Assembly (NCBI GenBank): GCA_902790495.1
Contig: CADASK010000010.1
Location: forward strand, 1-38,556
Source of the DNA: an uncultured Eubacteriales bacterium
Lineage (GTDB): Bacteria > Bacillota > Clostridia > Christensenellales > Aristaeellaceae
Length of the DNA: 38,556 nucleotides
Reading direction: 5' to 3'
The position numbers and the translations under genes are program-made. The notes under the pieces were generated by a model, which saw only the letters and a list, made by a program, of their open reading frames with translations, did not search any database and had not been told where the DNA came from. Each line of letters starts with the position of its first letter. Position 1 is the first letter of the stretch. Of this stretch, positions 7,730 to 34,357 are shown in pieces.

Positions 7730-7797
7730 CCCGAAGGTTTGCAAAGGGCGATCGGAAAGCCCTTTGCCCGCGCCCGCAGGCGCGGAATCCCCGCTGC
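7730..7797 (-). repeat. Family-1 structured intergenic repeat, copy B
   Basis: On the minus strand this reads GGATTCCGCGCCTGC, GGCGCGGGCAAAGGG, CTTTCCGATCGCCC and TTTGCAAACCTTCG, matching copies at 10371, 16008, 27391, 30986 and 34231. GCGCC/GGCGC and GGGC/GCCC arms allow hairpins. It lies between rnpA and yidD, inside the operon, with the repeat in reverse orientation to transcription. Confidence 0.85.
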
Positions 7798-7850
7798 CGT
7801 CGAATCGATGAAAGAGAGAGTCCTGAGAGCCTGAGAAAGGGAGTCGCGCT

Positions 7851-8093
7851 ATGCAGCGTTTCCTTTTATGGATGATCCGCCTCTACCGCCGCCACCTCAG
7901 CGCGCGCAAGCGTCAGCCCACCTGCCGCTTTGTGCCCACCTGCTCCGAGTACGCCCAGACCGCCATCCAGCGGTACGGCGCGAGCAAGGGCGGGCTCATG
8001 GCTGCCCGGCGCATCTGCCGCTGCCACCCGCTGTGCAAGGGCGGCTACGATCCAGTTCCGGAAGACCCCTGTACCGCCCTAAGGAGGGAATGA
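7851..8093 (+). CDS. yidD: YidD, membrane protein insertion efficiency factor
   Basis: This 80-residue protein carries the full YidD signature: [20 protein letters not shown], followed by [20 protein letters not shown] and GYDPVPE. YidD is a small peripheral membrane protein thought to help YidC-dependent insertion, and it is almost always encoded between rnpA and yidC, as here. The N-terminus ([20 protein letters not shown]) is an amphipathic basic helix of the usual type. The stop lies eight bases before the yidC start, which suggests coupled translation. Confidence 0.96.
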
Positions 8094-8100
8094 TACCGAC

Positions 8101-9105
8101 ATGGCTTTCTTCTCGACCATTGTGGAGGGTATCTACTCGGTGATCGGCAACTACGGCTGGTCGATCATGATCTTTACCCTTCTCGTCCGCCTGATCCTGA
8201 TGCCCTTTGACTGGCGCAGCCGCGTCAGCATGCGGAAGATGACCCTGGTGCAGCCCAAGATCCAGGAGCTGCAGAACCGCTACAGCAAGGACCCCGAAAA
8301 GCTCAACCGCAAGATGGGCGAACTGTACAAGCAGGAGGGCGTGAGCCCCCTGAGCGGCTGCCTGCCCCTGCTGCTGAGCTACCCGATCCTGATCCTGATG
8401 TGGAACGCCATGCGCGACGTAGCCAACCAGCAGCTGGTGCAGCAGGTGCTCGGCATCCTGCAGGAGGGCGGCAACACCATGCCGCCCATGGAGGGCTGGC
8501 TCTGGGTGAAGAACATCTGGATGCCCGACTCCCCCTTCTCCGCCGTGCTGCCCAACCTGGACAGCCTGCGCATGATCGGCGGCGACGTGTGGACCAAGTA
8601 CTTCACGCCCGAGGTCATCGCGACCCTGCCCGGCGAGCTGTCCGCGCTGACGGCTGAGAGCTTCACCGGCAACGCCCTGCTGCCCACCGTGCAGCAGATC
8701 TACAGCGTGCTGGCTCAGACGCCCGTGTACCTGGCCAACGCCAACCCCATGCCCGGCTGGACCTTCAGCTTCCTGGGCTTCAACCTGTCCATCATGCAGA
8801 ACTACAACGGCTATTTCCTGCTGCCGATCCTCTCCGCCGTGTCCCAGTTTGCCATGACGGCCATCACGCCCCAGCAGCCCACCGCCCAGCAGGGCCAGCA
8901 GAGCGGCCAGGGCACCATGAACTTCATGAAGTGGTTCTTCCCCCTCTTCTCGCTCTACATCTGCGCAAGCTACAACGGCGCGTTCGCCCTATACTGGGTC
9001 ACCGCCAACCTCATCATGATGGTGCAGACCTGGGGCATCAACAAGTATCTTGACCAGAAGGACGCCAAAAAGGCCGCCGTTGCCGGGGAGGGCAGTATCA
9101 AATGA
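8101..9105 (+). CDS. yidC: YidC/Oxa1-type membrane protein insertase
   Basis: This 334-residue multi-spanning protein inserts membrane proteins with or without the Sec translocon. The Oxa1 core is visible: a first membrane helix (YGWSIMIFTLLVRLILMPFD) with the conserved arginine, a cytoplasmic hairpin (MTLVQPKIQELQNRYSKDPE, MGELYKQEGVSPLSGCLP), further membrane helices and the last segment FSLYICASYNGAFALYWVTA. There is no large periplasmic domain and no lipobox, as in the shorter Gram-positive SpoIIIJ/MisCB types. A stretch at about residues 125-210 between core helices is longer than in Bacillus homologues. The stop overlaps the jag start (ATGA). Confidence 0.96.
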   Translation: MAFFSTIVEGIYSVIGNYGWSIMIFTLLVRLILMPFDWRSRVSMRKMTLVQPKIQELQNRYSKDPEKLNRKMGELYKQEGVSPLSGCLPLLLSYPILILMWNAMRDVANQQLVQQVLGILQEGGNTMPPMEGWLWVKNIWMPDSPFSAVLPNLDSLRMIGGDVWTKYFTPEVIATLPGELSALTAESFTGNALLPTVQQIYSVLAQTPVYLANANPMPGWTFSFLGFNLSIMQNYNGYFLLPILSAVSQFAMTAITPQQPTAQQGQQSGQGTMNFMKWFFPLFSLYICASYNGAFALYWVTANLIMMVQTWGINKYLDQKDAKKAAVAGEGSIK

Positions 9106-33030: not shown

Positions 33031-33123
33031 GGAATTCTCCTTTCCTGATCCGGGTGACTGGTCGTTATTGTGATGGTTTGATAAAAATGCTCATTCTATG
33101 GAAATCTGCGAAGGGTTTTCTCC

Positions 33124-34170
33124 TCAGACAACATCCCTCGCCTGAATCGTGTGAAAGCTCGCGGCCCGTCCCAGGCGGTTCATCACCGCCAGGCCGATGC
33201 CCTCCGGCGCCACCACCTCCGAGAAGATGACGTCCATCCCCTCGGTGTCCAGCCGGCGCAGTGTGTCGAAGAGGCGGTGCGCCACCTCCTCCGGCTCGCT
33301 CCGGCTGCCGATGTCGTGGGGGCGCCACTTCGCCAGCGCCGCCGTGTGCTCGCTGAAGCACATGACGCAGGCGCGGTGGCCGTTTGCCTCTGCCTGGGCG
33401 CAGAGCAGGCCCAGGGCCCGCACCACGTCGGCCTCGTCGCCCTCCACCAGGGTCACCTGGCCGTCCGGGGAGTAATGGCGGTAGCGCATGCCCGGCGAGA
33501 GGGCCTTCTCCCCCGCCTGCAGCGGCCTGAGCACGCTGCCCGCCACCTCCACGCGGCCCAGCACCTGCTCGAGCATCGCCTGGGTCACGCCGCCGGGCCG
33601 CAGGATGGTTGGCGTCCCGTGGGTCACGTCGATCACCGTGGATTCCAGCCCCACGTCGCAGGGGCCGCCGTCCAGGATCAGCGGGATGCGCCCGTCCATG
33701 TCCACCCGCACATGCTCGGCGGTGGTGGGGCTGGGCTTCCCGGAGCGGTTGGCCGAGGGCGCGGCGATGGGCAGCCCGCAGGCGCGGAGCATCGCCCGGG
33801 CCACGGGGTGCGAGGGCATCCGGATGGCCACGGTATCCAGCCCCGCGGTCACCACGTCCGGCACGCGGGAGGTGCGCGGCATCAGGATGGTCAGCGGGCC
33901 GGGCCAGAAGGCGTCCATCAGCGCGGGCGCGGCGTCCGGGATCTCCACCAGGCCCTCCAGCTGGGCGCGGTCCCAGATGTGGGCGATGAGCGGGTTGTCC
34001 GCCGGACGGCCCTTCGCCGCGAAGATGGCCTTCACGGCCTCCGCGTCCAGGGCGTTGGCGCCCAGGCCGTACACGGTCTCCGTCGGGAAGGCCACCAGCT
34101 GGCCCTCGCGCAGGAGCCTCGCGGCCAGGGCGAGGGATTCTTCGTTTGCGGGAAGTACCTGTGTCTGCAT
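33124..34170 (-). CDS. tsaC: Threonylcarbamoyl-AMP synthase, Sua5 (long) type
   Basis: This 348-residue protein makes threonylcarbamoyl-AMP for the t6A37 modification of ANN-decoding tRNAs. The YrdC domain at about 10-200 has GQLVAFPTETVYGLGANALD, KGRPADNPLI, FWPGPLTIL and PSANRSGKPSPT. A linker (GMRYRHYSPDGQV) leads to the Sua5 domain at about 240-348, so this is the longer YwlC/Sua5 form rather than short TsaC. It lies downstream of prfA on the same strand, as in many Bacillota, but without prmC between them. A long family-1 repeat fills the gap. The ribosome site is weak (AGAAAGAAG). Confidence 0.95.
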   Translation of the reverse strand: MQTQVLPANEESLALAARLLREGQLVAFPTETVYGLGANALDAEAVKAIFAAKGRPADNPLIAHIWDRAQLEGLVEIPDAAPALMDAFWPGPLTILMPRTSRVPDVVTAGLDTVAIRMPSHPVARAMLRACGLPIAAPSANRSGKPSPTTAEHVRVDMDGRIPLILDGGPCDVGLESTVIDVTHGTPTILRPGGVTQAMLEQVLGRVEVAGSVLRPLQAGEKALSPGMRYRHYSPDGQVTLVEGDEADVVRALGLLCAQAEANGHRACVMCFSEHTAALAKWRPHDIGSRSEPEEVAHRLFDTLRRLDTEGMDVIFSEVVAPEGIGLAVMNRLGRAASFHTIQARDVV

Positions 34171-34230
34171 GAAGCTACGTTCTTCTTTCTATGCTCTCAA
34201 TGCGGTGTGATGTTGTAACCTATTCTGCAC

Positions 34231-34357
34231 AAAGATTTTCGGCCTGCGGGCCGACCCGGGGGCTTTGCGATCGGTCCGGGGCTGCCGCCCGCTCTCCGCT
34301 GAAAACTCCATAAGATGGAGTTTTCCGGGCGCTACGAGCCCCCGGGACCCCTTCGCT
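34231..34357 (+). repeat. Family-1 structured repeat, long form, copy F
   Basis: GGGGGCTTTGCGATCGGTCC is followed by GGGGCTGCCGCCCGCTC, a perfect GAAAACTCCAT/ATGGAGTTTTC hairpin (34300-34324) and TTTTCCGGGCGCTACGAG, near-identical to 16008-16144. It lies between prfA and the Sua5-type gene, reversed relative to transcription. Confidence 0.9.

Follow-up and report, generated by a model that had tools for sequence, protein, structure and literature searches.

Tagged repetitive extragenic palindromes (REPs) are reported mainly from Proteobacteria, and those with a GTAG tag go together with a single group of transposases (PMC3733652); neither Firmicutes nor Clostridi appears as a word in the main text of that paper. 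The DNA analysed here (the window) is a contig of 38,556 nucleotides from an uncultured Eubacteriales bacterium of the Aristaeellaceae. It contains six copies of a tagged palindromic repeat, called the module below, which is probably a short mobile DNA hairpin, REP-like but of a new tagged type, spreading in the gaps between the genes of one bacterial family. An initial annotation had described the copies as a six-copy intergenic family, and a sequence check found all six where it had placed them; the 13-nt core GGCTTTSCGRTCG occurs six times in the window and in none of 200 windows simulated from it with a first-order Markov model. Though real, the six copies are a small sample of the family, as the draft genome of the same organism (G000; 2,466,513 bases, 78 contigs, 94.5% complete) holds 473 exact cores (241 forward, 232 reverse; reversed control, 0), a density of about one copy per 5 kb. 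Literature searches of open-licence papers, by content or by the core string, gave no published description that we recognised as this repeat.

The sense direction of the module is the reverse complement of GGCTTTSCGRTCG. In that order it consists of the tag SCGAAGG, the main hairpin P2 with the 9-nt loop GAYCGSAAA, usually a further hairpin P3, and GGAAYCCC. The CGS of the P2 loop is complementary to the SCG of the 5' tag. P3 is a second covarying hairpin, often present and mostly closed by a 4-nt loop, and its complementary arms come in many versions; its position showed no hairpin in 13 of 21 modules of genome G019, where the others look unrelated, and in 10 of 24 modules of G035. Modules occur singly, in tandem and in inverted pairs. 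Minimal modules that lack P3 were seen near 2391 and 3869 of stretch L259 (G008), one of them overlapping the 3' end of a kinase-like frame, and the operon around them resembles one for rhamnose use.

The module shares with GTAG REPs, bacterial interspersed mosaic elements (BIMEs) and REP doublets (REPINs), which go with the transposase TnpA-REP (RAYT), the small intergenic hairpin and the short tag 5' of its foot (PMC3733652, PMC6006769, PMC8266576 and PMC2817692). More than 100 copies, inverted pairs, a location mostly in co-directional and convergent gaps, and stem-type variants within one genome are further likenesses to the GTAG REPs. Intergenic hairpins, a 5' tag, inverted pairs, avoidance of divergent gaps and patchy amplification thus make up a REP-like pattern (PMC3733652). 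However, the module differs in its tag, SCGAAGG instead of GTAG or GTGG, in a conserved 9-nt loop that can pair with this tag, and in having P3 and a long form; five high-copy genomes gave no match to the Y1/RAYT transposase (PF01797) at E ≤ 1. The CGTC-tagged REPs are likewise tagged palindromes without a known dedicated transposase, but their published stems are 8–9 bp and their loops 4–5 bases, compared with the SCGAAGG tag and 9-base loop of the module (PMC3733652). Sub-terminal hairpins of IS200/IS605 elements are folded single-stranded DNA with a 5' guide tetranucleotide and are tied to the lagging-strand template, and the module may resemble them in this, its orientation following the replication strand strongly in G000 and weakly in G002; their guide contacts a cleavage-site tetranucleotide, whereas the partner of the module tag is the hairpin loop (PMC6006769 and PMC8266576). 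In such elements the Y1 transposase TnpA recognises and cleaves the hairpin; no transposase of that kind was seen with the modules. Integron attC sites, which IntI uses as folded single strands and which carry conserved R boxes, were considered as a further parallel. We class the module family as working like a REP but not as a member of the known REP families, because tag, loop and transposase all fail to match.

Pairing was quantified in an alignment (A3) of 63 sequences from seven genomes, chosen by hand from 116 of 146 distinct ones because their stems were intact and their lengths similar. P2 was paired in 94.4% of the cells and the tag-loop helix in 99.5%, against 13–52% (at most 51.8%) in slid controls. 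Double changes were found in 127 cells, where shuffled alignments gave a mean of 44.1 and none of 500 shuffles reached 127. The hairpin-forming arms of the initial annotation are therefore well founded, with hairpins predicted in all six window copies, strong covariation in the main hairpin, and the tag-loop pairing in addition; missing stem covariation, which had been named there as evidence against its reading, was not what the alignment gave.

The tag and the loop were also compared copy by copy. Among the 121 G000 copies that have five or more P2 pairs, tag/loop was GCG/CGC in 98, CCG/CGG in 19 and other in 4; a first tally of 130 copies (106, 19 and 5) is given no weight because the nearest GAAG of some long copies sits in their insert. 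Across 243 modules from six genome groups, the tag-loop pairing was Watson-Crick in 233, wobble in 2 and broken in 8, a few of which look like chance hits with unrelated stems, and both tag-loop states were found on six different P2 stem types. In six stretches of G025 the loop is GAGCGGAAA and the tag CCG, so that the three tag-loop pairs persist. Identical stem types recur across genera. Over the first seven P2 pairs of the 243 modules, 1675 of 1701 pairs were Watson-Crick, 10 were G.U and 16 were mismatched, the last two counts being lower bounds since the module finder demands six of the seven pairs. Because G.U is about as rare as mismatches, with no clear preference for wobble, the P2 pairing looks DNA-like rather than RNA-like.

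The six copies of the window and the leader beside one of them are as follows; gene names are those read by the initial annotation from the letters alone, and each tag position is the sense start of SCG.

7731..7792, plus strand: copy 1, short form, tag/loop CCG/CGG, in the rnpA-yidD gap; tag at 7731 (+)
10373..10433, minus strand: copy 2, short form, tag/loop GCG/CGC, in a convergent gap; tag at 10433 (−)
16008..16137, minus strand: copy 3, long form with an extra sub-domain within the main hairpin, tag/loop GCG/CGC; tag at 16137 (−)
27391..27445, minus strand: copy 4, rearranged, made of two 5' halves that belong to different stem types and are placed in inverted order, with a perfect outer inverted repeat; tag at 27444 (−)
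30990..31049, minus strand: copy 5, short form, in the gap between the T-box leader and pheS, with empty sites in relatives; tag at 31049 (−)
34235..34356, minus strand: copy 6, long form, tag/loop GCG/CGC; tag at 34356 (−)
31146..31397, minus strand: T-box leader upstream of copy 5 (Rfam RF00230, 68.5 bits, E 5.8e-13, under the gathering score of 93)

In the long form (repeats at 16008-16144 and 34231-34357) the extra sub-domain is inserted in P2, and the arms of the repeat at 27391-27451 derive from two different stem types. When the short copies 1, 2 and 5 were folded as RNA, each formed a junction of both hairpins on one strand or both, and folding of the sense strand as single-stranded DNA gave the same two hairpins in all three. 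By a simple rule, 170 G000 copies with enough flank were divided into 130 short, 39 long and 1 other, where 130 is an upper figure because a second GAAG within the insert caused some long copies to be counted as short. For a few such long copies the 5' boundary is misplaced in this classification, in the first tag-loop tally, and in the target-duplication, flank-complementarity and flank k-mer analyses below.

When one 65-nt copy was used as the query in G000, at least 45 matches, itself included, were obtained at E ≤ 0.01, with 40 of 428 candidates scored. The same-genus genomes G001 to G011 contain 52, 318, 3, 2, 90, 35, 0, 5, 5, 525 and 7 exact cores, respectively; with the own genome included, six of the twelve have 35–525 cores and six have 0–7. 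In other genera, G019 has 43 exact cores and G035 has 316. Counting the own genome, 31 of 60 have at least one exact core; in low-copy genomes many of the solitary core matches have no hairpin and lie within coding-like sequence. Of 200 genomes in the taxonomic family, a covariance model built on the 37-nt module matched 42 (own included), in 13 of 50 genera, at E ≤ 0.001, with at most 34 candidates scored per genome; in a phylum sample it matched 1 of 398 genomes at E ≤ 1e-4, the own genome only, with at most 17 scored. Both scans used stricter filters that lose weak matches, and their E-values rest on a short calibration. The near-identical copies, together with the near-absence from some genomes of the same genus, mean that copying is needed.

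In the window, five copies are co-oriented with the flanking co-directional genes and one lies in a convergent gap. The initial annotation had read this as a fixed orientation to transcription, which holds in the window but fails genome-wide. In 41 stretches of G000 (823,728 bases, window included, with home-made gene calls), 173 copies were placed: 116 in co-directional gaps, 33 convergent, 4 divergent, 13 within called genes and 7 at the edges of stretches. The co-directional copies were sense in 76 and antisense in 40 cases (p=0.001), about 2:1. In 26 stretches of G002 (478,668 bases, 116 copies), 35 of 64 co-directional copies were sense (p=0.53). The sense counts were 8 of 15 in G010 and 4 of 9 in G035, evened because many copies there sit in inverted pairs. 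Equal numbers in each orientation, which the same annotation had said would count against it, are thus seen in these three relatives and not in the own genome.

The leading strand was assigned to each contig from the GC skew at third codon positions, corrected for gene strand, and the orientation of 153 G000 copies (the 13 in-gene and 7 edge copies being excluded) was modelled with 95% intervals from a cluster bootstrap. Once replication strand was included, the gene-strand coefficient was 0.34 (−0.09 to 0.83), indistinguishable from zero, and the replication-skew coefficient was 0.90 per 0.05 (0.53 to 1.27), distinguishable from zero. On all contigs, 102 of the 153 copies were on the leading strand (55/71 by leading genes, 24/45 by lagging genes, 23/37 in convergent or divergent gaps); at clear skew (≥0.05) it was 67 of 86 (44/55, 11/16 and 12/15, respectively). 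The link to transcription is not general, and the link to replication is strong in G000 and weak in G002.

Gaps between genes were not occupied evenly. Copies were found in 24 of 46 convergent, 75 of 206 co-directional and 3 of 41 divergent gaps of G000, and in 16 of 24, 34 of 88 and 3 of 24, respectively, in G002; copies survive near 3' ends and are seldom present between facing promoters. In relatives (stretches L061 and L240) the position of copy 5 is unoccupied, pheS coming directly after the T-box as read by eye. No core was found at the pheS loci of six relatives or in the 80 loci L061-L140. IS200/IS605 elements insert without target duplication. Around 115 G000 copies, neither a target duplication at any fixed boundary nor an inverted repeat in fixed register rose above shuffles. 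Complementarity between the flanks was slightly above chance (score ≥20 in 8.8% of 113 G000 copies versus 1.9%) and had no fixed position, and the k-mers AAGCTCA, TAAACGC and AAAGAAC were enriched in the flanks, as judged with a rough background and rough gene calls.

Inverted pairs of modules were seen in G010, G035 and G019 and are not the rule in G000; nine stretches of G010 contain 22 pairs less than 400 nt apart. Stretches of G009, G010 and G011 contain seven distinct elements of 277–353 nt, picked by their GGTTCTTCACGNNNNGTTNGGGAAA ends, which have GGTTCTTCACGNNNNGTTNGGGAAA at both ends, and all seven carry two cores. An exact duplication of 8–9 nt surrounds three of the seven. They resemble miniature inverted-repeat transposable elements (MITEs) of the ISL3 family, an assignment that rests on the GGTTCTTCACGNNNNGTTNGGGAAA end abutting an ISL3 transposase gene in G008 (PF01610, E 1.2e-40); in G002 a similar end adjoins a fragment of PF01610. 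Unlike these MITEs, the solitary modules of G000 and G002 are without the terminal repeats, and those of G000 also without duplications. PF01610 matched in 2 of 15 genomes, neither of which is one with the MITEs. The GGTTCTTCACGNNNNGTTNGGGAAA-end pattern found no such end in G002, G019 or G035. In G000, ten GGTTCTTCACGNNNNGTTNGGGAAA-type ends (≤2 mismatches) were found, all within about 100 nt of a contig end, and ten ends against 473 cores indicate that the G000 modules are generally not bounded by ISL3-type ends. These ten (L264, L269, L273, L275, L277, L279 and four more; the six ends that were read are of two types) are probably a collapsed multi-copy insertion sequence. PF01610 had no match in G000 despite these ends; draft assemblies can lose multi-copy genes, a caveat that also bears on the missing Y1/RAYT matches.

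In G025 (L347-L353) modules are present, some in tandem about 110 nt apart, and in several stretches a centre of about 600 nt has modules on its two sides, in inverted order. An autonomous element was considered there; by eye, no transposase-like frame was seen among the frames of at least 50 codons in four stretches (two centres read, one with an N run; no family search run).

No Rfam 15 family overlapped the window copies at E ≤ 1, and no match at a module reached its gathering score in the window or, at E ≤ 10, in L193, L194, L195 and L188. The one overlap was MIR162_2 on L193 (4708-4872, minus strand; 25.3 of 103 bits, E 0.35), which extends across two inverted modules and the stretch between them; we take its identity as chance, the match being to the long hairpin formed by the inverted pair. 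L188 also contains a match resembling the NiCo riboswitch at 6291-6369 (minus strand; 31.4 bits, under the gathering score of 37). Intrinsic terminators were considered as well; one of 16 terminator-like sites (34254-34239, minus strand) in the two scanned stretches that hold all six copies touches a copy.

If the module is a mobile hairpin, its folded single strand would be what a recombinase recognises when the DNA unwinds, most likely at replication forks, and the pairing of tag and loop would set the fold or strand that is recognised. Copies that land in promoters or genes would be lost, which would leave survivors in convergent and operon gaps, and in some relatives MITEs bearing ISL3-family insertion-sequence ends may have captured two inverted modules. 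A more specific version can be put forward tentatively, as a possibility that we hold rather doubtful: the modules would be a third superfamily of tagged palindromes that is limited to a single bacterial family; tag and loop would lock together into a pseudoknot-like single-stranded DNA fold, a recombinase would spread copies with replication-strand polarity, and other transposons (ISL3 MITEs) would take up inverted pairs as ends. Were the module such an element, its different tag, the covarying tag-loop contact and the lack of a match to the known transposase would suggest that folded single-stranded DNA is read by a second enzyme as well. With hundreds of similar repeats to work with, genome plasticity in this family can be tested easily.

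Several points weigh against reading the module as mobile hairpin DNA. A recombinase linked to the solitary modules was not found; Y1_Tnp (PF01797) had no match at E ≤ 1 in the high-copy genomes G000, G002, G010, G019 and G035, matched below threshold in G001 and G005, and was above its cut-off in G006, G007 and G009, which have 35, 0 and 5 cores. Nor was PF01610 found in G009, G010 and G011, so that the transposase that moved the MITEs is not seen in the genomes that hold them. In A3, neither the pairs with a double change (7 versus 6.6 shuffled) nor the further pair types (12 versus 14.8) were in excess. Mismatches are under-counted, because the finder demands six of seven pairs and the A3 rows were picked for intact stems. 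Template switching can keep hairpin arms perfect without selection on the fold, and the existence of only two main tag-loop states limits the number of independent switches. As for replication, copies by lagging-strand genes of G000 showed no preference over all contigs (24 of 45 on the leading strand), the bias in G002 was weak (63 of 104 leading, p=0.04; 20 of 35 at clear skew), and the leading strand itself is read from codon skew in a fragmented assembly with home-made gene calls.

Among the other explanations, a classical MITE moved by a DDE transposase, with the modules as cargo or sub-terminal parts of ISL3-moved elements with terminal inverted repeats, would account for the two cores in each of the seven GGTTCTTCACGNNNNGTTNGGGAAA-ended elements, the duplication around three of them, and the ends beside PF01610 in G008 and beside a fragment in G002. 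We consider it unlikely for the family as a whole, as the ten ends of G000, all near contig ends, face 473 cores, the 115 copies examined show no target duplication above shuffles, flanking inverted repeats exceed chance only slightly, three genomes with many modules (G002, G019 and G035) yield no such end by pattern, and PF01610 and the MITEs do not share a genome. Intrinsic terminators, or non-mobile fossil spacers retained as hairpins that protect 3' ends, would fit the preference for convergent and co-directional gaps, the avoidance of divergent ones, and the stability of the hairpins as DNA and RNA; with a single terminator-like site of 16 touching a copy, and dozens of near-identical copies of one query copy (at least 45 matches, as above), this is very improbable.

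The initial annotation had drawn from the orientation a strand-specific RNA role in processing, stability or regulator binding, in which a three-way junction and tag-loop pseudoknot would act on the carrying transcript. RNA folds of the short copies do give the two-hairpin junction on one strand or both, covariation is strong, and 76 of the 116 co-directional G000 copies are sense. Against these stand the 40 antisense copies, the lack of bias in G002, G010 and G035, a gene-strand effect indistinguishable from zero once replication strand is modelled, G.U pairs about as rare as mismatches (10 versus 16), the lack of an Rfam match at the modules reaching a gathering score, and the empty site of copy 5 in relatives. 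An RNA role is thus unsupported by the orientation and, on the whole, quite unlikely; co-orientation with genes in a short window can stem from chance or replication polarity and not from RNA function.

Some other repeats were observed in the window. A second, unrelated palindromic repeat of the CCTTCCCC...GACGGATGAGGT type forms an inverted pair at 24188-24240 and 31460-31512 (85% complementary), and pieces resembling it adjoin modules elsewhere in G000. Positions 1-102 and 38455-38556, the two ends of the contig, are inverted copies of one 102-nt sequence (99%), which is distinct from the ISL3-type end; an insertion sequence present in several copies probably broke the assembly here, with this sequence as its end. 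On the minus strand, 902-6703 is an open frame of 1933 codons made up mostly of 105-nt (35-residue) repeats in more than 20 copies. Just upstream of the frame at 18134, an AT-rich palindrome (18047-18127) has 40-nt arms that are 73% complementary, and the Rfam mir-266 match to it (30.8 of 80 bits) is taken as chance.

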